From Pseudomonas parafulva (GTDB taxonomy: Bacteria; Pseudomonadota; Gammaproteobacteria; Pseudomonadales; Pseudomonadaceae), in assembly GCF_002021815.1 (NCBI RefSeq), contig NZ_CP019952.1:2387001-2451000 (forward strand): 64,000 nt of DNA, written 5' to 3'. A program made the translations under genes and the position numbers. Positions 8,275 to 20,307 of the stretch are shown piece after piece; the stretch's first letter is position 1; each line of letters opens with the position of its first letter. The notes below the pieces were generated by a model. The model was given only the letters and a program-made list of their open reading frames with translations. It searched no databases and was not told where the DNA came from.

Positions 8275-9192
8275 GTGAGCGAGGTACGCATTGGCATTTC
8301 AGGATGGCGATACGGTCCCTGGCGCAAGGACTTCTACCCCAAGGGGCTGCGCCAGGACGACGAGCTGGCCTTCGCGTCGAGGGCAGTCAATACCATCGAG
8401 ATCAACGGCTCGTTTTACAGCCTGCAAACGCCCGAACGCTATCAAGCCTGGCATGACGCCACACCCGATGACTTCGTGTTCGCGGTCAAGGCGCCGCGAT
8501 ACATCACCCACATCCGCAGACTTAAGGACATCGATACGCCATTGGCCAATTTCTTCGCCTCCGGGCCGCTCCTTCTCGGTAACAAGCTCGGCCCATTCTT
8601 ATGGCAGTTCCCTGCCAACATGCGTTTCGACGCTGAGCGATTCGATGCATTTCTGCGATCGCTGCCGCGTGACCGCGCCGCTGCCCGACGCAGCGCCAGT
8701 GGCTGCGAGCAACGCCTGCAAGGTAACGGCGGCACGCAGATAAGCGGCAATGCGCCGCTACGCCATGCGGTGGAAATTCGTCACGAAAGTTTCCTGTGCG
8801 AGCGCTTCGTGGAACTGCTGCGCCAGCACAACGTTGCCCTGGTGGTTGCCGACAGCGCGGGCAAGTGGCCTTACGTGGAGGACGTCACCGCAGATTTCAT
8901 GTACATGCGCCTGCATGGCGACGTCGAACTCTACAGCAGCGGTTATACCGTCAGCGCACTGCGCCGCTGGAAGAAACGGATCGAACAGTGGCGTGAGGGG
9001 AGTCAGGCCGACGATGCACACCTGATCGTACAGGGCCCTCCCCCCCGGCGCTCAACCCGGGATGTGTACTGCTATTTCGATAACGACCAGAAAGTCCACG
9101 CCCCTTACGACGCGCGCCGATTGCTGGAAAAGATGCACCTGGACCACGAGCTGATGACAGAGCCGGGCGCCGAGCCGGAGGTTGAACTGTGA
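8275..9192 (+). CDS. DUF72 (YecE-like) family protein
   Basis: The 305-residue protein begins at GTG 8275 behind AGGAGG. It opens with the family signature IGISGWRYGPW, and contains NTIEINGSFYS and AVEIRHESF, typical of the TIM-barrel-like DUF72 fold. No reaction is established for the family to my knowledge. Residues ~130-165 hold a Ser/Arg/Gln/Gly-rich stretch that looks like a species-specific insertion before the conserved RHAVEIRH strand. Its stop overlaps the GTG start of the EEP-nuclease gene by 4 bp, so translation is coupled and it leads the four-gene operon 8275-12126. Confidence 0.88.
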   Translation: MSEVRIGISGWRYGPWRKDFYPKGLRQDDELAFASRAVNTIEINGSFYSLQTPERYQAWHDATPDDFVFAVKAPRYITHIRRLKDIDTPLANFFASGPLLLGNKLGPFLWQFPANMRFDAERFDAFLRSLPRDRAAARRSASGCEQRLQGNGGTQISGNAPLRHAVEIRHESFLCERFVELLRQHNVALVVADSAGKWPYVEDVTADFMYMRLHGDVELYSSGYTVSALRRWKKRIEQWREGSQADDAHLIVQGPPPRRSTRDVYCYFDNDQKVHAPYDARRLLEKMHLDHELMTEPGAEPEVEL

Positions 9193-9974
9193 ACCCTACA
9201 CTCTCCGCGCCAAGCTGCATCATCGACAAAGTCACCGCCGTGCACCGTTTGAACGTACTGACGCTCAACGTGCACAAAGGCTTCACCTTCTTCAACCGCC
9301 GCTTCATCCTGCCGGAGCTGCGCGATGCGGTACGTGCCACGGGCGCCGACCTGGTGTTTCTCCAGGAGGTGCATGGCAGCCACCAACAGCATGCGATCAG
9401 CCACCCTGCCTGGCCGCAGGCGCCCCAGTACGAATTCCTGGCAGACAGCATGTGGCCGCAATTTGCCTATGGTCGCAACGCCGTTTATCCCCATGGCGAT
9501 CACGGCAACGCCTTGCTCTCCAAATTTCCGATCGTGCGTTCGGAAAACCTCGACGTCTCAGTGGCGGGAAATGAACAGCGAGGCCTGCTGCACTGTCAAC
9601 TGGAAGTACCCGGCCACGACGAAGTGCATGCAATCTGCGTGCACTTGGGCCTACGGGAGGCACACCGGCAGAAGCAGGTGAGTCTGCTGTTCGACTTGCT
9701 CGACCGCCTGCCCGCCAAGGCACCGGTGATCATCGCCGGCGACTTTAACGACTGGCGTCTGAAAGGAGATGCCGTGCTGTCGCAGCGCTTGATAGAGGCA
9801 TTCGGGGAGCGTTTCGGCTCGCCAGCCCGCAGTTTTCCGGCACGCCTGCCGCTGCTTCGGCTTGACCGGATCTACGTGCGCAATGCCATGCCCCACGCTG
9901 CAAAGGTTTTATCCAACTATCCGTGGTCGCACCTGTCCGACCACGCCCCCCTGGCTGCGGAGATCAACGTGTGA
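9189..9974 (+). CDS. Endonuclease/exonuclease/phosphatase family protein (YbhP-like)
   Basis: The 261-residue protein shows EEP-superfamily motifs in order: LTLNVHKG, FLQEVHG (metal-binding Glu), ICVHLGL, IIAGDFNDW (catalytic Asp/Asn) and LSDHAPLAAEI (catalytic His). The fold hydrolyses phosphodiester bonds in nucleic acids or phospholipids. Order with the next two genes (EEP, ClsB, YbhN-like) matches the E. coli ybhP-clsB-ybhN neighbourhood, which suggests a lipid-related role rather than DNA repair; that is inference. The start is GTG 9189, overlapping the DUF72 stop, and the stop overlaps the next GTG start by 4 bp. Confidence 0.9.
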   Translation: MNPTLSAPSCIIDKVTAVHRLNVLTLNVHKGFTFFNRRFILPELRDAVRATGADLVFLQEVHGSHQQHAISHPAWPQAPQYEFLADSMWPQFAYGRNAVYPHGDHGNALLSKFPIVRSENLDVSVAGNEQRGLLHCQLEVPGHDEVHAICVHLGLREAHRQKQVSLLFDLLDRLPAKAPVIIAGDFNDWRLKGDAVLSQRLIEAFGERFGSPARSFPARLPLLRLDRIYVRNAMPHAAKVLSNYPWSHLSDHAPLAAEINV

Positions 9975-11173
9975 AAAGACCTTGGGTCGATGGCAACAGC
10001 GTCGAGCTGCTGATCAATGGTGAGGCGTTCTACCCGCGGGTCTTCGAGGCCATGGGCCAGGCGCGCAATGAAATCCTGCTCGAGACATTCATCATCTACG
10101 AAGACAAGGTAGGCCATCAGCTGCAGCGTGCCCTGATCGAGGCAGCGCAACGCGGGGTCCGTGTCGAAGTGGTTGCCGACGGATACGGCACCGCTGACCT
10201 GTCAGCCGAGTTCATCGCGGCGATGACCGAGGCGGGAGTAAGGTTTCACCTGTTCGACCCCCAGCCTCGTCTGGCGGGCCTGCGCACCAACCTGTTCCGC
10301 CGCCTGCATCGCAAGATCGTCGTGATCGACGGGGAGCGTGCGTTCATTGGCGGCATCAACTACAGCGCCGATCATCTCGGCGACTATGGCCCCATGGCCA
10401 AGCAGGACTACGCCGTGGAGGTAACCGGGCCAGTGGTCGCGCAGGTGCATGCCGTCAGCCGTCGATTGATGTCGCCGGTGCTCGAGCCCCCAAGCGAGGT
10501 GCGGCCTGTCACCGACCCCACTGGCGACATCACCGCTGTGATGGTAGAGCGGGACAACGGCCAGCGCAGCACGGCTATCGAAGCCTATTACCTCGAAGCG
10601 CTGCGTGGCGCGCGCAAGCGCATCGTGGTAGCCAATGCCTATTTTTTCCCAGGCTATCGCCTGTTGCGCGAGTTGCGTAACGCCGCGCGTCGCGGGGTTG
10701 AAGTGACCCTCATCATGCAGGGTGAGCCTGATATGTGGTGGGTGCGTACCCTGGCTCGCCTGCTCTACAACTACCTGCTTCGCGACGGGGTGCGGATCCA
10801 TGAGTATTGCCGGCGCCCCCTGCACGGAAAGGTCGCACTGGTGGATGACGAATGGTCCACGGTCGGTTCGAGCAACCTCGACCCGCTGAGCCTGTCGTTC
10901 AACCTTGAAGCCAACCTGTTCATCCGCAGCCGCGCCTTCAATCAGCAGCTCCACGACCATCTGCAGTCGCTGGCCAGCGAACAGTGCAAGACGGTCACCC
11001 TGGAGCGAATGATTCGCGGCTACTGGTGGCGGGCGCCACTGATCTTCTTGAGCTTCCATGTCATACGTCACTTTCCGCGCATTGCCGGTTGGCTACCTGC
11101 GCATCGCAAGCGCCTGAAAACGCCTGGGCAAGCCGTAGAGACCCAAGGCAACCTGCACGAGGGCAACACCTGA
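9971..11173 (+). CDS. clsB: Cardiolipin synthase B (phospholipase D family)
   Basis: The 400-residue protein carries two HKD motifs: HRKIVVIDGERAFIGG near residue 113 and HGKVALVDDEWSTVGSSN near 285. Both include the His-Lys-Asp residues needed for phosphatidyl transfer. ClsB-type enzymes make cardiolipin by condensing phosphatidylglycerol with another phospholipid at the inner membrane. The N-terminus lacks the two membrane helices of ClsA, consistent with ClsB. GTG 9971 is chosen because it overlaps the upstream stop (GTGA). Neighbours match the E. coli clsB locus on both sides. Confidence 0.92.
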   Translation: MKRPWVDGNSVELLINGEAFYPRVFEAMGQARNEILLETFIIYEDKVGHQLQRALIEAAQRGVRVEVVADGYGTADLSAEFIAAMTEAGVRFHLFDPQPRLAGLRTNLFRRLHRKIVVIDGERAFIGGINYSADHLGDYGPMAKQDYAVEVTGPVVAQVHAVSRRLMSPVLEPPSEVRPVTDPTGDITAVMVERDNGQRSTAIEAYYLEALRGARKRIVVANAYFFPGYRLLRELRNAARRGVEVTLIMQGEPDMWWVRTLARLLYNYLLRDGVRIHEYCRRPLHGKVALVDDEWSTVGSSNLDPLSLSFNLEANLFIRSRAFNQQLHDHLQSLASEQCKTVTLERMIRGYWWRAPLIFLSFHVIRHFPRIAGWLPAHRKRLKTPGQAVETQGNLHEGNT

Positions 11174-12126
11174 TGGAACGAAAGCGTTGGCAAGTGTGGG
11201 CCAAGCGTCTGTTCACCGTCCTGTTCCTTATCCTGATCCCGGCGTTACTGTTCACGTTGGCGCGCAACCTGGATTGGAACGAGGTGCGTGAATCGCTGTT
11301 GGCCTACAAACCCGGCACATTGGCCGTCGGGTTGGTCATGGCACTGATGAGCTTCTTGATCTTTGCCAGTTACGACTTATTGGCCCGAACCTATACCGGT
11401 CACAAGTTGCCGGTCCGGCAAGTGCTGCCGATCGCCTTCGTGTGCTACGCCTTCAACCTCAACTTCACCACCTGGGTGGGCGGTGTTGCGTTGCGCTATC
11501 GGTTATACGGCAGGCTTGGGTTGGACACGCCCACCATCACGCGCATTCTCACCTTGGGGCTACTGACCAACTGGATGGGCTACATGCTGCTGGCAGGCAG
11601 CGTGTTTGCCATGCGCCTGGTCGAATTGCCCGCAAACTGGGCGGTCGGCACCACTGGGCTGCAGCTCATTGGCTTCGCGCTGCTGGCCATTTCGATCGGC
11701 TATCTGCTGGCCTGCGGTTTTGCCAAAAAACGCACCTGGCGCTGGCGCGAGCATGAACTGACGCTGCCTTCACTGCGACTTGCACTGTGCCAGGTGGCCT
11801 TGGGCGCCAGCAACTGGGCAATGATGGCGCTGCTGATCTTCTGGCTGTTGCCAGAGCAGGCGTTCTATCCCTCCATCCTGGGGGTTCTGCTGATCAGTTG
11901 CGTGGCCGGGGTGGTGGCTCACATTCCGGCTGGGCTTGGTGTGCTGGAAACCGTATTCCTGGGCCTGCTTCAAGGGCAGATTCCACAAGGCAGCCTGGTT
12001 GCAGCCTTACTGGCCTATCGAACCTTGTACTACTTGATACCGCTGGTGTTGGCGGTCATCACCTACTTGGTGCTGGAAAAGCGCGCTAAGACCATGCGCC
12101 GGCAAGATACGCCAGCACCAACATAA
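11173..12126 (+). CDS. YbhN/UPF0104-family integral membrane protein (LPG synthase transmembrane-like)
   Basis: The 317-residue protein has about eight hydrophobic segments and the family hallmarks NFTTWVGGVALRYRLYG and AHIPAGLGVLE. It resembles the flippase-like membrane half of lysylphosphatidylglycerol synthase (MprF) without the aminoacyltransferase half. ATG 11173 shares one base with the clsB stop (TGATG), so translation is coupled. In E. coli the homologue YbhN also lies beside clsB. A role in moving or presenting phospholipids is plausible but not shown. Confidence 0.88.
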   Translation: MERKRWQVWAKRLFTVLFLILIPALLFTLARNLDWNEVRESLLAYKPGTLAVGLVMALMSFLIFASYDLLARTYTGHKLPVRQVLPIAFVCYAFNLNFTTWVGGVALRYRLYGRLGLDTPTITRILTLGLLTNWMGYMLLAGSVFAMRLVELPANWAVGTTGLQLIGFALLAISIGYLLACGFAKKRTWRWREHELTLPSLRLALCQVALGASNWAMMALLIFWLLPEQAFYPSILGVLLISCVAGVVAHIPAGLGVLETVFLGLLQGQIPQGSLVAALLAYRTLYYLIPLVLAVITYLVLEKRAKTMRRQDTPAPT

Positions 12127-12263
12127 AGGGGGGCGGTTGGTGGGTAAGTCACAAAACTAGTGCTGCTCCAAGCTCAGCACAGTCCCCTTGCAGGAGCGCC
12201 TCGTCAAGGCCGCTTCTATGGAATTCGCTCACTCTCTGAGACGGTTTAAGAGAGGTTGAACAG

Positions 12264-12289
12264 GCCGGGTCTGCCCAGGCAGACCCGGC
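12264..12289. terminator. Strong hairpin between convergent genes
   Basis: A perfect 12-bp inverted repeat (GCCGGGTCTGCC / GGCAGACCCGGC, 2-nt spacer) sits between the YbhN-like gene stop and the metallothionein stop. Neither side has a long T-run, so it may act as a weak bidirectional terminator or an mRNA 3' stabiliser. The 12127-12263 interval shows nothing else recognisable. Confidence 0.6.
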
Positions 12290-12299
12290 TCAATACCCC

Positions 12300-12524
12300 T
12301 CACGGCGAAATAGGATCGCTCGCTGGGAAAGTCTCATCCAGCGCATTGTCCACACTGGTTTCCTTTTTCTGCTCAACCTTGCCACAGGTGCAGTCAGGCA
12401 TGCGGCATGGCTCGCCGTTACGGTGCCCGGTCGCACACGCTTCGCAGCAGTAGGCCTTGCCATTCTGCGGCAAGGTGCTCACCGTGCAGGAACACTCGGT
12501 ACAAGCGCAGCGTAATTCGCTCAT
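12300..12524 (-). CDS. Bacterial metallothionein
   Basis: The 74-residue protein contains ten Cys residues within its first ~50 positions, arranged as CACTECSC, YCCEAC and CRMPDCTC, with a His in ATGHRNGEPC. This is the pattern of bacterial metallothioneins (SmtA/BmtA family), which bind Zn, Cd or Cu in a cytosolic cluster. An extra ~24-residue hydrophilic tail contains LDETFPASDPIS, a motif seen in other small Pseudomonas proteins and partly echoed (LLDETGARD) in the upstream gene product. ATG 12524 has AAAGGAG 7 nt upstream. It lies 2 bp after the upstream gene's stop, so the pair is an operon. No SmtB-type repressor is nearby. Confidence 0.9.
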   Translation of the reverse strand: MSELRCACTECSCTVSTLPQNGKAYCCEACATGHRNGEPCRMPDCTCGKVEQKKETSVDNALDETFPASDPISP

Positions 12525-12526
12525 GA

Positions 12527-12985
12527 TCAACTCCTTTCGTCTTCTTCAATTGCATCGTCAGTCCACGGTTTCCCGTCAAGCGGGTTGGTGCGGGCCAGTT
12601 CTGCTTCGTCAAGGCCTCGACCGCCGCCGATCTCGATCGCGTCTTTTTCGGTCAGCGCCTGATCGGCAGGGCCGCCGTACCCAGGCTCATGGGAATCTCG
12701 AGCGCCGGTTTCGTCCAGTAGCGTGTCCGGGCTCAGATCATCATCCGTGACACCGTCCTCATGCAGGCTGTCGGTCAGCGCCTCGCCGCCGGTCAAGCCG
12801 CTCTGGCGCACCCGCTCTTCCGGGAATTCCTGCTCCACTTCACGCTCTGGTCGTTCATCACCTACCCGCCCCTGACGGTCATCAAGGCGATCACTGAAGT
12901 TCAGCTCATGCACACTGCCCATACGATCCTCGATGTCATCGATCTCGGTCGGGGTATAGGCTTTGGGTTCATCGGGTCTGGACAT
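12527..12985 (-). CDS. Acidic hypothetical protein, co-transcribed with metallothionein
   Basis: This 152-residue protein is strongly acidic and low in hydrophobic residues, so it is probably largely disordered. Segments such as TEIDDIEDRMGSV, ALTEKDAIEIGGGRGLDEAELA and ARTNPLDGKPW are conserved-looking, but no domain is recognised. Pseudomonas homologues are sometimes labelled serine kinase/phosphatase; I see no catalytic motif supporting that. GGAGAGG precedes ATG 12985. It is immediately upstream of the metallothionein gene (2-bp gap), pointing to a shared metal or stress response. Confidence 0.75.
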   Translation of the reverse strand: MSRPDEPKAYTPTEIDDIEDRMGSVHELNFSDRLDDRQGRVGDERPEREVEQEFPEERVRQSGLTGGEALTDSLHEDGVTDDDLSPDTLLDETGARDSHEPGYGGPADQALTEKDAIEIGGGRGLDEAELARTNPLDGKPWTDDAIEEDERS

Positions 12986-13135
12986 TACGCCTCTCCATCA
13001 GTTGGCTTACCCAAAGTCGACTGCTCTGCACCCAGGAAGATTCAGAGTTTTACGCGGCCAGTGGCGGTTTTTTGAACTCCAATGCCGCTCCCCGCCTCCC
13101 AAGATCAAGACAGCCCAGGTTCCGGAGCCCCCCTC

Positions 13136-15637
13136 ATGGCCACGCCACTCGAGGAATACGCGCGCAAGCGCGATTTCAACGCCACGCCCGAGCCAATCGG
13201 CAAATCCGGCCGCAGCAAAGGGGCTCACGCGTTACAGTTCTGCATCCAGAAACATGACGCCAGCCATTTGCACTACGATTTCCGACTGGAACTGGACGGC
13301 ACGCTCAAAAGTTGGGCGATTCCAAAGGGTCCCTCCCTGGATCCGAAAGTCAAACGCCTGGCCGTGCATGTCGAAGACCATCCGCTCGATTACGCCACCT
13401 TCGAAGGCCACATTCCGGAAGGTCACTACGGTGGGGGCGATGTCATCGTCTGGGACCGTGGGGTTTGGGAACCCGACGGGGACCCGCGTGAGGGTTACAA
13501 AAAAGGCAAACTGCGCTTTCGCCTGCAAGGCGAGAAGCTCGCTGGTATGTGGAACCTGTTCCGCACACGGCTGGCTGGCAAGAAAGAGCAGTGGATGCTG
13601 GTCAAGTCGAATGACAGCCAGGCCCGCAGCGAGGCCCAGTACAGCATTGTCGAGGACCAGCCCGACAGCGTGATCAGCGACCGCACTTTGGTTGCCAAGC
13701 AATCCGCCAAAACGGCCAAACCCGGCAAAGGCAAGCCCGCCCCGACCAAGCAAGCCGCCAAGTCCAAGCCCGCTATGCTGCCAGAACACATGCAGCCGCA
13801 GTTGGCCACGTTGGTCGACTCACCCCCCTCGGGGGACTGGCGGTATGAGGTGAAGTACGACGGTTACCGCATTCTCGCGCGCATCGAGGGCGATGATGTG
13901 CGGCTCTATACCCGCAATGGCCATGACTGGAGCGCCAAGATGCCGGGCCAAATCGCTACGCTACGCGCGTTGGGTGTGGACTCTGCGTGGCTCGATGGCG
14001 AGATGGTCGTCAATGACGACCAGGGGGTTGCAGACTTCCAGGCCTTACAGAACGCATTCGATACCGCGCATGATGAACAAATCACCTATTACGTCTTCGA
14101 CCTGCCGTTTCTGGGCGGTCAAGATTTGCGCGCCCTTCCCTTGCAGCAGCGACGCGACGCGTTGGAGCGCTTGCTTGAGCACAGCACTGCGGACAACCTC
14201 AAGTACTCTGCGGACTTCGACGAGCCGGTTGAAGCGTTGCTCGAGAGCGCCTGTAAGCTGGGCCTTGAAGGCTTGATCGGCAAGCGTGCCGACAGCAGCT
14301 ATTCAGGCACGCGCAGCGCCGACTGGATCAAGCTCAAGTGCAAGCGGCGGCAGGAGTTTGTAGTGGTGGGCTATACCGACCCCAAGGGCAGCCGCAGTGG
14401 GTTCGGCGCCTTGCTATTGGCCCTGCACGACGACGCAGGCATGCTGCGTTACGCCGGCAAGGTGGGCACAGGGTTCAGTGCCACCACCCTTGACACATTG
14501 CACGCACAACTCAAACCCCTACAAACCGCCCAGCCTACTGTAGCCAACCCCCCCACTGGCGCCGAAGCCCGAGGGATACATTGGCTAGAGCCCACGTTGC
14601 TGGCCGAGATCGCCTTTGCCCAGATGACCCGTGACGGCGTAGTACGCCACGCGGTATTCCACGGTTTGCGCGACGACAAACCGGCAACCGATATCGACCT
14701 GGAGCGTGCCATGCCGAGCAAGACCGTCCATCAGCGCAAGGCGGCCAAGAGCACCGAGACGCTGGGTGATCTGCGCCTGACCCACCCTGATCGCGTGATC
14801 GACCCTACCTCTGGCATGACCAAGCGTGACGTCGTCGAATACTACGCCCAGGTCAGCGAATGGATCTTGCCCCACCTCAAGAATCGGCCGGTTGCGCTTG
14901 TGCGTGCGCCAGACGGCCTCGCCGGGGAACTGTTTTTCCAGAAAAACGCGGGCCAGCTGCACATTCCAAACGTGCGTACGTACGGCAAAGAGGAAGCCGG
15001 CCAGGCCGCCATGGTCATCAACCGCCCTGACACTTTGCTCGGCGCCGTACAGATGAACATGCTTGAACTGCACACCTGGAACGCCACCGACACGCAGTTC
15101 GACCGGCCAGACCGTTTCGTACTCGACCTGGACCCTGACCCGGCCCTGCCGTGGAAGGCAATGCTGGAGGCCACCCAGCTGACCCTGACCCTGCTGGACG
15201 AACTGGGTCTGAAGGTGTTCATCAAGACCAGCGGGGGCAAAGGTATCCATCTGGTTGTCCCGCTAACGAGAAAAGCGAGCTGGGACGACGTCAAGGATTT
15301 CAGCCACGCCATCGTCACCTACCTGGCAAAACTGTTCCCTGATCGGCTCACCGCAGTGTCCGGCCCCAAGAACCGTGTAGGCCGCATCTTCATCGACTAC
15401 TTGCGCAATGGCAAAGGTGCTACCACGGTGTGTGCTTACTCGCTGCGCGCTCGCGAGGGCTTGCCGGTGTCGGTGCCGGTCTGGCGTGAAGAACTGGCAC
15501 AGCTCAAGGGCGCCAATCAGTGGACCATTGCCACAATAGGTGAGCGACTGGCCGATACCCAAGACCCTTGGGCCGACATGAGCAAGACCCGTCAATCCAT
15601 CACGGCGCGGATGCGCAAACAACTTGGGCTCACGTGA
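13136..15637 (+). CDS. ligD: ATP-dependent DNA ligase D (NHEJ)
   Basis: The 833-residue protein has the Pseudomonas-type three-domain order. A 3'-phosphoesterase domain holds HDASHLHYDFRLELDG near residue 40 and HYGGGDVIVWD near 98. The central ATP-dependent ligase holds the lysine motif EVKYDGYR near 240, DGEMVV near 285 and KLKCKRRQEF near 400. The C-terminal LigD polymerase/primase holds DLDPDP near 665 and SGGKGIHLV. Together with Ku it repairs double-strand breaks by end joining. ATG 13136 is chosen since proteins of this family begin with a close match (EYARKRDFNATPEP) and CGGAG lies 8 nt upstream. The next operon begins 34 bp downstream. The ku gene is nearby but on the opposite strand. 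Confidence 0.95.
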   Translation: MATPLEEYARKRDFNATPEPIGKSGRSKGAHALQFCIQKHDASHLHYDFRLELDGTLKSWAIPKGPSLDPKVKRLAVHVEDHPLDYATFEGHIPEGHYGGGDVIVWDRGVWEPDGDPREGYKKGKLRFRLQGEKLAGMWNLFRTRLAGKKEQWMLVKSNDSQARSEAQYSIVEDQPDSVISDRTLVAKQSAKTAKPGKGKPAPTKQAAKSKPAMLPEHMQPQLATLVDSPPSGDWRYEVKYDGYRILARIEGDDVRLYTRNGHDWSAKMPGQIATLRALGVDSAWLDGEMVVNDDQGVADFQALQNAFDTAHDEQITYYVFDLPFLGGQDLRALPLQQRRDALERLLEHSTADNLKYSADFDEPVEALLESACKLGLEGLIGKRADSSYSGTRSADWIKLKCKRRQEFVVVGYTDPKGSRSGFGALLLALHDDAGMLRYAGKVGTGFSATTLDTLHAQLKPLQTAQPTVANPPTGAEARGIHWLEPTLLAEIAFAQMTRDGVVRHAVFHGLRDDKPATDIDLERAMPSKTVHQRKAAKSTETLGDLRLTHPDRVIDPTSGMTKRDVVEYYAQVSEWILPHLKNRPVALVRAPDGLAGELFFQKNAGQLHIPNVRTYGKEEAGQAAMVINRPDTLLGAVQMNMLELHTWNATDTQFDRPDRFVLDLDPDPALPWKAMLEATQLTLTLLDELGLKVFIKTSGGKGIHLVVPLTRKASWDDVKDFSHAIVTYLAKLFPDRLTAVSGPKNRVGRIFIDYLRNGKGATTVCAYSLRAREGLPVSVPVWREELAQLKGANQWTIATIGERLADTQDPWADMSKTRQSITARMRKQLGLT

Positions 15638-15671
15638 TGGGCGACGCCCAACGCGACAGGGAGTTACGCGC

Positions 15672-16715
15672 ATGAGCATGCCTCAGAACTATGACCTCAC
15701 CCAGCTGGACCGCTTGTTGCGCACTTATGACGAGCGGCTGCAGCCGCTCAATGTCGACACCCAGTTACTTGAACTGATGAAAGCTTTGCAGGCCCATTGC
15801 CTGGATATTCTGCCCAGGCCGGGCCACGGCAATACGCTTGAGCGTTGGCAGACCTTGTCGCGGGTCGCCGGCTGTGACCTGGTCTTGGCCAAGCTCTATG
15901 AAGGGCATACGGACGCTTTGGCGATCCTGGCCGAGTGTGGTGCTGGCCATCTTTCGTCTGAGGGGATCTGGGGCGTGTGGGCCGCAGAGCCCCCGGATGC
16001 TCGTGCCGTCATCACCTCCCAAGACGGGGGCCGTGTCCGCCTCGGCGGAAAGAAAGCGTGGTGTTCGGGCGCCTTGCAAATCGATCAGGCATTGATCACC
16101 GCCTGGGACGAGTCCGGTAAGCCACAGCTGGTTGCCATCCGCTTGGCCGACCCAACCTTGGGCCTCAATATCGAGCACTGGCAGGCTGTGGGCATGGCCA
16201 GCACTGCCAGTGTCGAGGTCGAATTCAACGACACACCTGGTGTGCTCGTCGGTGCAGCGGGCCAATATTTGTCCAGGCCGGGCTTCTGGCACGGCGGCGC
16301 GGGCATCGCCGCCTGCTGGTATGGGGCGGCCGAGGCGCTGGCCGAATACCTGCGCGAGCACTGCCGCAAACCCAAACCAGACCCCCACGCAGACGCGCAC
16401 TTGGGCGCTGTAGATGCCGCCCTGTGCGGCGCTCGGGCGGCATTGCGTGAATGTGCTGCCTGGATCGATCTCAACCCAGGCGCCGATGCCAGCCTGATCG
16501 TGCAACGCGTGCGCGCTCAGGTTGAACATGCCGTGGAACACGTCATGCGTCACGTAGGCCGAGCATTGGGTGCAACCCCGTTTTGCCGTAATGCCCACTT
16601 TGCGCGCTTGAGCGCAGACCTGCCGGTGTTCATTCGCCAAAGTCACGCCGAGCGAGACCTTGCAGCCCTCGGCGAACAGACCGCACAGCTTTCTTCCGGA
16701 GCATGGCAGCTATGA
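15672..16715 (+). CDS. Acyl-CoA dehydrogenase-like flavoprotein
   Basis: The 347-residue protein resembles the acyl-CoA dehydrogenase fold: an N-terminal helical segment, a middle beta domain around GIWGVWAAEPP and GGKKAWCSGALQID, and a C-terminal helical bundle ending FIRQSHAERDLAALGE, a typical ACAD terminus. It is shorter than usual (~380), and I cannot confirm the catalytic base. GGGAG precedes ATG 15672. It starts 34 bp after ligD and overlaps the deacetylase gene by 4 bp, heading the operon 15672-18740. The setting suggests oxidation of an acyl or amine-linked group in a small-molecule pathway rather than beta-oxidation; that is inference. Confidence 0.82.
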   Translation: MSMPQNYDLTQLDRLLRTYDERLQPLNVDTQLLELMKALQAHCLDILPRPGHGNTLERWQTLSRVAGCDLVLAKLYEGHTDALAILAECGAGHLSSEGIWGVWAAEPPDARAVITSQDGGRVRLGGKKAWCSGALQIDQALITAWDESGKPQLVAIRLADPTLGLNIEHWQAVGMASTASVEVEFNDTPGVLVGAAGQYLSRPGFWHGGAGIAACWYGAAEALAEYLREHCRKPKPDPHADAHLGAVDAALCGARAALRECAAWIDLNPGADASLIVQRVRAQVEHAVEHVMRHVGRALGATPFCRNAHFARLSADLPVFIRQSHAERDLAALGEQTAQLSSGAWQL

Positions 16716-17467
16716 GTGAAGACCTGATCCAGTCCAATGATGGTACGCCCTGGTCAGCGTGGCAGCACTCGGCCCATCTGGCCCGGGCCACCTGGCTCAA
16801 TGCACACCAGCTCTGCCCGCCTGGTCGGCGCCTGGTGCTGATCGCACCCCATCCGGATGACGAGATTCTCATGGCAGGCGGTCTGCTGACCGATTTTGCC
16901 GGGCGTGAAGAGGACCTGGTGCTGATCTCGGCGACCGACGGCGAAGGCAGCCATCCCAGCTCGACCCGCTGGACAGAGCATCGTTTGCGTCGCGACCGGC
17001 CGCAAGAAAGCCGCAAGGCCATCGAGCAACTCGGGCTGGACCCCAAGCGTATCGATTGGCGCCGCCTGCACCTGAAGGACAGTCAACTGGCCAGGGAGGA
17101 AGCCTTTCTGGTCAGCCATCTGACTCAGCTACTGCGCCCTGAGGATGTGCTGATGACGACCTGGCGAGGTGACGGCCACTGCGATCACGAGGCCGTAGGC
17201 CGGGCCGGGGCACAGGCAGCGCTAGCGCGTAAAGCCCAGCTGGTGGAAGCCCCAGTATGGGCATGGCACTGGGGACAACCTGACGATCCACGTCTGCCCT
17301 GGGAGCGCGCGCACCGCTTGCAACTCAATGAGGGCCAGGTGGCACGCAAGCGCAAAGCCATTGCTGCACACGCCAGCCAGTTCGAGCCTGACGGTTGTAC
17401 ACCGCCGGTGCTACGCCCTAACCTGCTGGACTGCGTGCTACAGCCCTTCGAACTGGTCTTCTTGTAA
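16712..17467 (+). CDS. PIG-L family N-deacetylase
   Basis: The 251-residue protein has the PIG-L/LmbE zinc signature APHPDDE near residue 49 and the second metal motif DGHCDHEAVGR near 155. Relatives remove the acetyl group from N-acetylglucosaminyl lipids or thiols (GlcNAc-PI, mycothiol and bacillithiol precursors). ATG 16712 overlaps the upstream stop (ATGA) with GGAG 10 nt before; the in-frame ATG 16703 would leave only one base after the Shine-Dalgarno. The adjacent glycosyltransferase and methyltransferase suggest an amino-sugar-containing product. The substrate is unknown. Confidence 0.88.
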   Translation: MSEDLIQSNDGTPWSAWQHSAHLARATWLNAHQLCPPGRRLVLIAPHPDDEILMAGGLLTDFAGREEDLVLISATDGEGSHPSSTRWTEHRLRRDRPQESRKAIEQLGLDPKRIDWRRLHLKDSQLAREEAFLVSHLTQLLRPEDVLMTTWRGDGHCDHEAVGRAGAQAALARKAQLVEAPVWAWHWGQPDDPRLPWERAHRLQLNEGQVARKRKAIAAHASQFEPDGCTPPVLRPNLLDCVLQPFELVFL

Positions 17468-17478
17468 AAGGATTCGCC

Positions 17479-18078
17479 ATGAGTATCGATGCCCAATACT
17501 TCGCCGACCTGTATGCCGCCAACGAAGACCCCTGGGCCTTTCGTACCCGCTGGTATGAAAAACGAAAACGCGACCTGGTCATGGCAAGCCTGCCCCGGCA
17601 GTGTTACGAACGGGTGTTCGAGCCCGCCTGCGCCAATGGCGAACTCAGTGTGCTGCTGGCCGAGCGCTGTGCCGAGCTGGTGTGCCAGGACCTCGACCCG
17701 AAGGCTGTGGGCTTGGCCACCGATCGCCTGGCCGATGTCCGCCACGCACAGGTCGAACGCGCCCGCCTGCCTGCCGACTGGCCAGGCGGGCGTTTCGATC
17801 TGATCGTGCTCAGCGAAGTGGGCTACTACCTTGATCCCACCGACTGGTTGCAGGTAATCGAACAGGCTGTCGCCAGCTTGTCCTACGACGGCGGCCTGCT
17901 GGCGTGTCACTGGAAGCACCCGATTGCCGGGTGCCCCCAGGACGGGCGCGAGGTGCACCGAATGCTGTCCAAACACCTGCCGCTGTACCCGGTGTTCTGC
18001 CACGACGAAGCCGACTTCATCATGGCTTACTGGTCGAATCAGCCCAGCGTGGTAGACCTGGACGAGACGTGCATATGA
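17479..18078 (+). CDS. NodS-like SAM-dependent methyltransferase
   Basis: The 199-residue class I methyltransferase begins YFADLYAANEDPWAFRTRWYE, a start characteristic of the NodS family, which N-methylates the de-acetylated amino sugar of Nod factors in rhizobia. The SAM site is VFEPACANGELS near residue 46 with an acidic residue ending the second strand (CQDLDP). A downstream FDLIVLSEVGYYL motif follows. It lies 11 bp after the PIG-L deacetylase gene and overlaps the next gene by 4 bp. A deacetylase plus NodS-type partner suggests methylation of an exposed amine, but the substrate is not known. Confidence 0.87.
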   Translation: MSIDAQYFADLYAANEDPWAFRTRWYEKRKRDLVMASLPRQCYERVFEPACANGELSVLLAERCAELVCQDLDPKAVGLATDRLADVRHAQVERARLPADWPGGRFDLIVLSEVGYYLDPTDWLQVIEQAVASLSYDGGLLACHWKHPIAGCPQDGREVHRMLSKHLPLYPVFCHDEADFIMAYWSNQPSVVDLDETCI

Positions 18079-18740
18079 TCGGCATCGTCATTCCGGCCCA
18101 CAACGAAGCCCGGCGTCTGGGTCGATGCCTGAAGGCTGCCTCGGCTGCCGCCCAACACGCTGCGGTAGCCGGTCATGAGGTCGATATTCTGGTGGTGCTC
18201 GATCGCTGTACCGACGGCACCGCCGCCGTCGCCCGGCGCCACGGTGCACACACCTTCGCCATCGATGCCGGTAATGTCGGCATGGCTCGGCGCGCGGGCG
18301 CAGAATGGATGCTCGCGCGCGGTGCCACATGGCTCGCCTGCACAGACGCCGACAGCCAGGTTCCTGCCCACTGGCTGACGTCACAGCTCGACTGCGGCGC
18401 TGAAGTCGTCTGCGGTACGGTCCATGTGAGCCACTGGCAGCCCTGGCAAACAGCCGCCTTACGCAAGCTCTACCTGAGCCGCTACGAGGCACGTGACGGG
18501 CACCGTCATATCCATGGGGCCAATCTAGGCGTAAGCGCCCAGGCGTATCAGCGCGTCGACGGCTTCCAGCCACTGGCTGCCCACGAGGATGTTCAACTGG
18601 TGCGGGACCTGGAAGCGCTGGGGGTGCCGATCAGTTGGTCGGCTGCGCACAGTGTGGCCACCAGCAGCCGGCGCGAGTGTCGAGCACGCGAAGGGTTTGG
18701 CGATTACCTGGCCGGCCTGCAGGAGCACCTGCAGGCCTAG
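18075..18740 (+). CDS. Family 2 glycosyltransferase
   Basis: The 221-residue protein has a GT-A fold start (GIVIPAHNEARRLGRCL), a nucleotide-binding VVLDRCTDGTA segment, and the metal-binding acidic motif CTDADSQVP near residue 95. HGANLGVSAQAYQRVDGF and AHEDVQLVRDL match the acceptor/ED region of GT2 enzymes. It has no membrane segment, unlike NodC. ATG 18075 overlaps the methyltransferase stop (ATGA). It is the last gene of the four-gene operon and converges on ku (15 bp between stops). Confidence 0.88.
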   Translation: MIGIVIPAHNEARRLGRCLKAASAAAQHAAVAGHEVDILVVLDRCTDGTAAVARRHGAHTFAIDAGNVGMARRAGAEWMLARGATWLACTDADSQVPAHWLTSQLDCGAEVVCGTVHVSHWQPWQTAALRKLYLSRYEARDGHRHIHGANLGVSAQAYQRVDGFQPLAAHEDVQLVRDLEALGVPISWSAAHSVATSSRRECRAREGFGDYLAGLQEHLQA

Positions 18741-18755
18741 CAGGTGTGAGTGTAC

Positions 18756-19616
18756 TCAAGAAGCCTTGCGCGTACGTTTGGCGGGCTTCTTCGCCGCAGC
18801 CGGTTTCTTCTTGGGAGACGCGGTGCTTTTGCCGCCGAGGCTGCGTTTGAGCAGCTCGGTGAGATCGATGATGTCTGCGCTCTTCTCGCCGCTGCTGTCC
18901 TCGCCCTTCTCCACCGTCTCGATCTTGCCTTTGCTGGCTTTTTCCGCGACCAACTCCATGATTGTGTCCCGAAACGCGTCGTGATACTCGTCCGGTGACC
19001 AGGTGCCGGTCATGTCTTGAACCAGACGCTTGGCCATGTCCAGTTCCCGTTTGTCCACTTTGGCCTTGGTCACAGTCGTGTCCAGTTCAAGGGTATCGAG
19101 CCCACGTACCTCATCGGGCCAGCGCAACGTGATCATTACCAGGGCTTCATCCAGGGGTCGGATAAGCGCAAGGTGCTGGCGTGTGTGCAGCACGACTGTC
19201 GCCAAAGCCACTTTGCCGGTGGTGGCCAGCGTTTCGCGCAACAGCGCATAGACCTTGCCGCCGCGCCGGTCAGGGCTCAGGTAATAAGGGGTGTCGAAGT
19301 GTTGAAGGGGAATTTCCCCTGCGTCCACGAATGAAAAGATGTCGATCGTCTGAGTGGCCTCCGGGCGGGCCTTGCGGATCTCCTGTTCACTGATCACCAC
19401 ATAGCGGCCCTTCTCGTACTCCACGCCCTTGACGATGTTCTCCTTGTCGATGTCCTTGCCGGTGACTTTGTTGATGCGCTTGTAGCCCACTGGGTCCATG
19501 CTGCGCTTGTCCAGCCAGTCAAAATCAACGCGTTCACTGCTGACGGCGGAGTTGAGCGCCACGGGGATGTGTACCAAACCGAAACTGATGGCGCCTTTCC
19601 AGATTGCCCTGGCCAT
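18756..19616 (-). CDS. ku: Ku protein (NHEJ end-binding)
   Basis: The 286-residue protein has the bacterial Ku core: ARAIWKGAISFGLVHIPV at the start, then YKRINKVTGKDI and RWPDEVR. A short Lys/Ala/Pro-rich tail (SPKKKPAAAKKPAKRTRKAS) probably aids DNA binding. It forms a homodimer that rings DNA ends and recruits LigD. ATG 19616 is chosen: GGGAG lies 7 nt upstream, whereas the in-frame ATG 19622 is only 1 nt after it. It lies 3.1 kb from ligD on the opposite strand. Confidence 0.95.
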   Translation of the reverse strand: MARAIWKGAISFGLVHIPVALNSAVSSERVDFDWLDKRSMDPVGYKRINKVTGKDIDKENIVKGVEYEKGRYVVISEQEIRKARPEATQTIDIFSFVDAGEIPLQHFDTPYYLSPDRRGGKVYALLRETLATTGKVALATVVLHTRQHLALIRPLDEALVMITLRWPDEVRGLDTLELDTTVTKAKVDKRELDMAKRLVQDMTGTWSPDEYHDAFRDTIMELVAEKASKGKIETVEKGEDSSGEKSADIIDLTELLKRSLGGKSTASPKKKPAAAKKPAKRTRKAS

Positions 19617-19719
19617 TGACATGCTCCCTGAGTGATCTGCTGATACCTCAAGTGACTGCGCCACATCAGGAAAGGTTTAACCGCAGTGCCCGGTGGCTCC
19701 CACAGCCATAGGCAGATAT

Positions 19720-20307
19720 TCAGGCAGGATTGAAGAGCACCCGCTTGAAGGCTTCTGCCGCCAAGTGAACCTGCACGGACCAGTCGGTGGCCGCATCGCT
19801 CCCGGCATCGTCGGAGATGTATTTCAGGCATACGAACGGGATGTCCTCGGACCGTGCGACAAGCGCCAGCGCATAGGCCTCCATGTCGACCACGTCATAG
19901 GGCGCATCACCGTGCCTGATCTCGAAATTATCGCCTGTGCCACAGGTTTCGATAGGCAGCCCCGCAATGGCCAGCCCATGTTCAAGTACGACAGGGATGT
20001 CGGAAAGCGGCGTTTCGTAACGCGCAAACCCCAGAGGCGTGACGTCCATGTCGCGCTGGACGAACCGTGTGCAGCACACCAGGCTGCCCTTGCCATGCAG
20101 CCGGCTGCCTGCCGAGCCGAGATTGACGATGAGCCTGGGCCTGCGCGTAGTCACAGCGCGGGTGAGCGCGATGGCCGCGTTCACCTTGCCAATACCGGTG
20201 AAGACCGTATTCAGATGCCCGAACAGACCGCCCGCCTCTGCCTCCAGGGCAAAGACGAACAGCGTGTCTTCCAGGGCTACACGGGGGAACAGCGGGGTCA
20301 GCATCAT
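19720..20307 (-). CDS. Nucleosidase / phosphorylase superfamily protein
   Basis: The 195-residue protein resembles the PNP/UDP superfamily that includes MTA/SAH nucleosidase: a first strand TLFVFALEAEAGGL, the FTGIGKVNAAIALT glycine turn, LIVNLGSAG, and near the C-terminus VVDMEAYALALVA (ribose-binding Glu) and LKYISDDAG. It likely cleaves a nucleoside N-glycosidic bond, with substrate unassigned. AAGGA lies 8 nt before ATG 20307. It is 103 bp upstream of ku on the same strand, and 145 bp downstream of a SAM-dependent methyltransferase gene, which could link it to SAH recycling; this is inference. Confidence 0.82.
   Translation of the reverse strand: MMLTPLFPRVALEDTLFVFALEAEAGGLFGHLNTVFTGIGKVNAAIALTRAVTTRRPRLIVNLGSAGSRLHGKGSLVCCTRFVQRDMDVTPLGFARYETPLSDIPVVLEHGLAIAGLPIETCGTGDNFEIRHGDAPYDVVDMEAYALALVARSEDIPFVCLKYISDDAGSDAATDWSVQVHLAAEAFKRVLFNPA

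Follow-up and report, generated by a model that had tools for sequence, protein, structure and literature searches.

A conserved four-gene cassette between ligD and ku of Pseudomonas parafulva may belong to a bacterial stress and desiccation programme

Four genes, acd, pigl, mt and gt, are the only occupants of the space between ligD and ku, genes of non-homologous end joining (NHEJ), in a 64,000-nucleotide stretch of the Pseudomonas parafulva genome (the window; NZ_CP019952.1, positions 2,387,001 to 2,451,000). Open reading frames (ORFs) combined with family scans place on the forward strand acd (15672..16715), encoding a flavoprotein-like protein of 347 residues with the acyl-CoA dehydrogenase (ACAD) fold, likely a flavin monooxygenase or oxidase; pigl (16703..17467, start perhaps at 16712), a PIG-L/LmbE zinc de-N-acetylase; mt (17479..18078), a NodS-like S-adenosylmethionine (SAM)-dependent (N-)methyltransferase; and gt (18075..18740), a soluble family 2 glycosyltransferase of GT-A fold with a DAD metal site. 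The same approach identifies the flanking ligD (13082..15637, forward) and the convergent ku (18756..19664, reverse). acd follows ligD on the same strand after 34 bp, pigl, if started from the ATG at 16712, overlaps the acd stop by 4 bp (ATGA), 11 bp separate pigl from mt, mt and gt share another 4-bp ATGA overlap, and gt ends 15 bp from ku. An earlier note, made from the DNA letters, had proposed these families and this spacing behind ligD, and the ORFs and family scans bear it out in full. Members of the P. putida group probably transcribe the cassette from, or together with, ligD. No sigma-70-like promoter site was found in window positions 11900-19800, and the CTATACT box, which we take to be RpoS-like, occurs nowhere in the window; control by RpoS is therefore unsupported by the sequence. 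There is no Rfam match in window positions 12000-20000. In KT2440 the cassette presumably carries the tags PP_3256-PP_3259.

The flavoprotein matched only the middle domain PF02770, at 21.4 bits against a cut-off of 33.3, and is not among the 14 PF00441 matches at E 1e-5 of the host genome (4.69 Mb, one contig); distant cassette members from Bradyrhizobium and Deinococcus give weak PF00441 matches. A profile search of solved structures returned TdsC, DszC and MsuC as the best matches, the first four Foldseek hits were MsuC and DszC, and SfnB is a further relative, with AidB appearing only at E 0.19. The catalytic Glu of ACADs at the C-terminal EGT position is found in none of 14 cassette rows and in all own-genome ACADs used for comparison (L164, L165, L169, L171, L173 and L174; rows L166, L167, L168, L170, L172 and L177 were left out of the alignment). 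A true acyl-CoA dehydrogenase was rejected on the missing Glu and the missing PF00441 match, a rejection that does not extend to ACADs with the base on another helix. With its ACAD fold and best similarity to DszC/MsuC, acd groups by similarity with the class D flavin monooxygenases and is predicted to be, most likely, a flavin monooxygenase or oxidase. Its motif K-x-W-C-S-G-A aligns with K-H-F-C-S-G-A of DszC, although the class D enzymes compared are longer (414-417 versus 347 residues), identity is ~20%, and Q323 and S324 of acd correspond to His and Asp in the own-genome homologues L175 and L176, which by their motif we take for the SfnB/DszC type. Of the oxidised product suggested in the earlier note, the oxidation step is plausible. 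In Deinococcus wulumuqiensis (L221) acd is annotated with 790 residues, and the ~420 N-terminal ones match nothing in Pfam or the PDB.

pigl scores 90.1 bits against PF02585 (gathering threshold 28.2) and belongs to this family. H50, D52, D53, D157, H159, D161 and H162 are kept in 48 of 48 aligned rows; we take H50, D52, D53, H159 and H162 to be metal-binding or catalytic residues. The nearest solved relative is diacetylchitobiose deacetylase, and the host genome holds no second match to the protein at E 0.001. A label as bacillithiol or mycothiol deacetylase was rejected, as the NCBIfam scores for BshB1 (40.1 bits, cut-off 182.5), BshB2 (34.7, cut-off 195.25) and MshB (20.6, cut-off 224.35) all fall short. 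For mt, the Pfam NodS model gives 37.4 bits, above its cut-off of 24, and the NCBIfam NodS model (NF041650) gives 50.9 bits against 300; the Deinococcus and Bradyrhizobium proteins reach 72.6 and 73.8 bits with the latter, also below 300. Its nearest solved structures are 4isc, NodS (PDB 3ofj, E 1.9e-10) and, weakly, gentamicin N-methyltransferase (E 0.0099), and D17, P18, E27, E113 and Y116 are kept in 52 of 52 rows. gt is assigned to GT2 by its match to Glycos_transf_2 (PF00535, 45.5 bits), a DxD motif and a GT-A fold. D91-A92-D93 is kept in 45 of 45 rows, in an alignment without L035 and L082 and with shortened ranges for L092 and L093. Its profile finds only weak matches among solved GT2 enzymes (best E 1.6e-5), and by VIA-align its fold is similar to that of polymer and teichoic-acid transferases. 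Hydrophobic segments are absent from all four proteins, the highest 19-residue Kyte-Doolittle mean being 1.18.

Relatives of acd were scanned in one genome per species, and the best 80 of 525 confirmed relatives were used, 78 of them titled Pseudomonas, together with six further loci of the same family and 32 others (27 genomes and five plasmid records). acd, pigl and mt lie on one strand within 4.5 kb in 77/80 best relatives, 6/6 family loci and 26/32 others, and all four genes stand together in 65/80, 5/6 and 21/32, respectively. acd and pigl overlap or lie at most 50 bp apart in 77 of 79 loci, pigl and mt in 77 of 78, and mt and gt in all 63 measurable loci, counts in which automatic start calls exaggerate the overlap lengths. 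The nearest named relative among the fetched loci is Pseudomonas fulva (90% in acd). Non-syntenic homologues, which the earlier note had regarded as fatal to a single unit, are not what we see, since order and tight spacing are kept in most relatives. Because gene order is conserved and an operon of the same four products is published for Acinetobacter baumannii, the four genes are one unit, as had been claimed, and this conserved unit travels as a set, being found in many distant bacteria.

Plasmids carry it as well. PIG-L matches were found in 74 plasmid records, and 12 hand-picked ones were opened, five of which are also within the 32 other loci; acd, pigl and mt are present on every one of the 12, and gt has a match on 11. 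These records come from Acinetobacter (2), Pandoraea (2), Bradyrhizobium, Sulfitobacter, Paracoccus, Komagataeibacter, Kitasatospora, Streptomyces, Embleya and Deinococcus and thus span Pseudomonadota, Actinomycetota and Deinococcota. Among 398 Pseudomonadota genomes, 39 match acd at E 1e-8, where weak matches include other ACADs, and 22, counting the host, match better than 1e-60, a line for strong cassette genomes that was drawn after inspecting the table.

The arrangement varies in detail. A second, divergent PIG-L gene (41-46% to that of the window) follows gt in many loci of the trehalose-linked branch (25 of the 80 best relatives, e.g. L059, L061, L066), and it persists in L062, L068, L084, L094 and L096, where gt is absent beside mt. 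In P. wayambapalatensis (L034) no PIG-L gene was seen and acd and mt are ~70 bp apart. A TnpB gene lies between acd and the PIG-L gene on the Deinococcus wulumuqiensis plasmid (L221, 4104-7836). On the Pandoraea vervacti plasmid (L002, 9337-10003) the gt match is split in two with a shortened frame; the copy on the P. faecigallinarum plasmid is whole. One record filed as a plasmid, A. baumannii NZ_CP077849.1 (L006, 3.66 Mb), is probably a chromosome.

What surrounds the cassette differs between lineages. Among the best relatives, ligD lies within 1.5 kb upstream in 30/80 and ku nearby in 25/80, while in 35/80 the cassette directly follows trehalose/glycogen genes, named here from domains and the known order of the operon. 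A tree built by a quick method from 119 acd proteins, with long branches flagged, requires two changes for the trehalose label and five for the ligD label. The placement beside ligD is lineage-specific. One Pseudomonadaceae locus (L133) combines both settings, with ku-ligD on one side of the cassette and glgX-treY-malQ on the other; in the host genome treY and glgX lie ~0.6 Mb away. The link to DNA repair drawn in the earlier note holds for the ligD/ku layout of one lineage and for a small number of others, but a different Pseudomonas branch has trehalose/glycogen genes in the position of ligD. In P. gingeri A6001 and strain PH1b (L046, L047) only a 190-210-residue ligD match precedes the cassette, as if ligD decays and the cassette persists.

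Outside Pseudomonas, otsA lies near the cassette in L005, L138 and L144 (a weaker match in L142), treY in L146 and sucrose-phosphate synthase in L147, L153 and L156; catalases, DUF892 and NHEJ genes are also among the neighbours. For control, 40 segments, each of 20 kb and set at fixed positions on the same contigs in 15 of the 27 genomes, were searched for catalase, otsA, treY, sucrose-phosphate synthase, ligD, ku and DUF892. At least one of these families is present at 15/27 non-Pseudomonas cassette loci and in 1/40 controls (Fisher 6e-7). Catalase accounts for 8/27 versus 1/40 and trehalose/sucrose synthesis for 7/27 versus 0/40, whereas NHEJ genes alone (2/27 versus 0/40) are not significant. 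Off the list, glgX and malQ together occur at 1/27 cassette loci and in 1/40 controls, and a PLD-like family at 0/27 cassette loci and in 1/40 controls. In the P. putida group and at L133, L135 and L148, the stretch fetched around the cassette includes NHEJ genes, and on the Bradyrhizobium plasmid the cassette, DUF72, Ku and LigD all fall within 10 kb. Catalase is near the cassette on the Sulfitobacter and Paracoccus plasmids, with treZ also on the latter. The co-occurrence with ligD, which the earlier note had proposed to check, is present: 17 of the 22 strong cassette genomes, the host included, have LigD versus 80 of the 376 others (Fisher 1e-7, ignoring kinship and genome size). No LigD match was found in the remaining five (G046, G074, G138, G354, G360).

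Some neighbours were seen in smaller sets. L147, L148, L153, L155, L156 and L158, mostly same-phylum genomes outside the class, have extra glycosyltransferases (GT2, GT4, MurG-like) beside the cassette, and three of them a sucrose-phosphate synthase/phosphatase fusion. The Kitasatospora plasmid (L004) carries genes for spore photoproduct lyase, polyphosphate kinase 2 and a PRC-barrel protein nearby, again a stress-type company. In the window itself, ligD is preceded by genes for a DUF72 protein (8275..9192, forward) and an endonuclease/exonuclease/phosphatase family protein (9189..9974, forward), both from domain scans, a phospholipase-D/cardiolipin-synthase-like protein (9923..11173, forward) and a YbhN-like membrane protein (10984..12126, forward), both named by eye, and an acidic protein of 152 residues without Pfam match (12527..12985, reverse; cluster c20, in 16 loci of the set). 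At some loci of other Pseudomonas, L077 among them, relatives of the endonuclease/exonuclease/phosphatase gene come after the cassette.

Published expression data come from A. baumannii. ACICU_02432-02435, listed as one operon ('operon e', Table 2), encode a glycosyltransferase, a SAM-dependent methyltransferase, LmbE and a putative acyl-CoA-dehydrogenase-related protein, and RNA-seq found them down 31- to 62-fold in both colistin-dependent mutants (PMC5660220). The same list of 33 down-regulated genes contains the trehalose-6-phosphate synthase and phosphatase genes (otsAB; 12- to 50-fold) and a catalase (22- and 31-fold) (PMC5660220). Matched by product description, the operon has the four gene products and the order of the cassette and is co-regulated; it figures in table rows, and neither section 8 nor the passages available to us discuss it (PMC5660220). 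In the A. baumannii record L006 the four cassette genes are found in this order too. Our literature search, which covered main texts or passages of papers, returned no description of the cassette besides this table, and the cassette search terms are absent from the main texts of PMC6641147 and PMC5967708.

Because trehalose/sucrose, catalase and NHEJ genes are its neighbours and it is co-regulated in A. baumannii, the cassette's real partner appears to be the stress/desiccation programme, of which DNA repair is one member. We put the probability at about 50% that the cassette is a four-gene biosynthetic unit of this programme that runs a cytosolic amino-sugar glycoside pathway. N-deacetylation followed by N-methylation of an amino sugar would best fit pigl and mt. 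In the proposed route, the GT2 enzyme would load a soluble acceptor with an N-acetylhexosamine (HexNAc), from which the PIG-L enzyme would then strip the acetyl group, the NodS-like enzyme would N-methylate the freed amine with SAM, and the ACAD-fold flavoprotein, as class D flavin monooxygenase or oxidase, would oxidise the amine or N-methyl amine. Cells would thereby gain a protective cytosolic glycoside, produced together with trehalose and with the defences against peroxide and DNA breaks; it would probably be a small molecule with a methylated amino sugar at its core. We infer this chemistry around a conserved unit and a stress-related company that are observed. A soluble protectant is favoured over a glycolipid or signal by the cytosolic nature of the enzymes, by the lack of a transporter in the unit, and by neighbours whose three unrelated routes all lead to non-reducing disaccharides. 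The acd-pigl-mt triad persists while its neighbours vary, which speaks for common regulation and not for a common substrate. More speculatively, and with the odds against it, the product could be a small cytosolic N-methylated, N-oxygenated glucosamine glycoside of hydroxylamine or nitrone type. It would be a so far unrecognised kind of stress metabolite that a portable acd-pigl-mt(-gt) cassette makes in at least three phyla, and it would scavenge radicals or form a glass and protect dry or resting cells together with trehalose/sucrose, catalase and end-joining.

Some of our data weigh against this interpretation. The families compared with the controls were picked from the cassette loci themselves, so the p-values flatter the case. 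For acd, DszC/MsuC and ACADs are nearly tied in Foldseek and tied by VIA-align Z. The A. baumannii data show genes regulated together in a different genus and in mutants of an unusual kind, and are no proof of stress induction in Pseudomonas (PMC5660220).

The same enzymes could also modify the cell envelope or a lipid-linked molecule, such as a Nod-factor-like lipochitooligosaccharide or an amino sugar of lipopolysaccharide (LPS) or exopolysaccharide. A NodS-like methyltransferase with PIG-L, glycosyltransferases near some alphaproteobacteria-like loci and L147 (clusters c12, c18, c27) and a GT fold like that of polymer and teichoic-acid transferases fit this, but the unit contains no acyltransferase, membrane synthase or exporter, no membrane segment occurs in any of the four proteins and the NodS score stays under its cut-off, and we consider this account unlikely. 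The glycolipid suggested in the earlier note likewise loses ground for want of hydrophobic segments, which still leaves room for a lipid acceptor. Less probable again is a low-molecular-weight thiol or redox cofactor of mycothiol/bacillithiol type, in which the glycosyltransferase and the PIG-L enzyme would produce a glucosaminide for further elaboration and the flavoprotein, sulfur-oxidation-like, would act on the thiol. BshB1 and BshB2 are indeed the best NCBIfam models for the deacetylase (40 and 35 bits), the flavoprotein lies near DszC/MsuC/SfnB, and N-methylation of bacillithiol by a dedicated SAM methyltransferase is known from Chlorobi. Yet these scores are far under the cut-offs of 182.5 and 195.25, MshA and BshA are GT4 enzymes whereas the cassette glycosyltransferase is GT2, and no cysteine ligase was seen among 20 scanned recurrent neighbour proteins, the only place where it was sought.

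A catabolic or detoxifying route that salvages N-acetylated or alkylated metabolites is similarly improbable. It could draw on SfnB and desulfurising monooxygenases among the flavoprotein relatives (AidB at E 0.19) and on the stress context, but a methyltransferase with a glycosyltransferase points to synthesis, and the listed A. baumannii operon moves in parallel with trehalose synthesis (PMC5660220). We give very little credence to a repair accessory that partners ligD and ku. The P. putida group position, the NHEJ genes near the cassette in L133, L135, L148 and the Bradyrhizobium plasmid, and LigD in 17/22 cassette genomes versus 80/376 others speak for it; however, five of the 22 have no LigD match and the co-occurrence ignores relatedness, trehalose/glycogen genes stand there instead in 35/80 Pseudomonas loci, and the cassette enzymes perform sugar and methyl chemistry.

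As far as our literature search went, this widely shared biosynthetic unit, which sits in stress islands of both environmental and clinical bacteria, is undescribed. Should its product protect cells that are dry or starving, trehalose, sucrose and ectoine would gain a companion on the short list of bacterial protectants, and an explanation would be at hand for the acyl-CoA dehydrogenase, LmbE and methyltransferase genes that a stress-type data set lists without one.

Several known systems share parts of the proposed chemistry. NodB and NodS of Nod-factor synthesis likewise N-deacetylate and then N-methylate glucosamine with SAM, and NodS shares the DPW and EV.YYL motifs with the cassette methyltransferase. 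NodB, however, is a polysaccharide deacetylase whereas the cassette enzyme has the PIG-L fold, and Nod-factor synthesis relies on NodA and the membrane protein NodC, while the cassette adds a flavoprotein. The Nod-factor label was rejected on the NodS score (50.9 versus 300 bits) and on the unit having neither NodA nor membrane NodC; as the earlier note had said, no acyltransferase lies between ligD and ku, though the rest of the genome was not scanned for NodA/NodC. The Nod-like chemistry proposed in the note is supported as far as a deacetylase with a NodS-like methyltransferase goes, but not as a Nod-factor system. The MshA/MshB and BshA/BshB modules also pair a glycosyltransferase with a PIG-L deacetylase for a cytosolic product, but mycothiol and bacillithiol synthesis adds a cysteine ligase, seen in none of the scanned neighbours. 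Class D flavin monooxygenases with the ACAD fold also include the nitrososynthases DnmZ and KijD3. Finally, the Pseudomonas trehalose/glycogen operon (glgA-treZ-malQ-treY-glgX) precedes the cassette in P. fluorescens-type species, P. viridiflava and P. avellanae and differs from it in chemistry.

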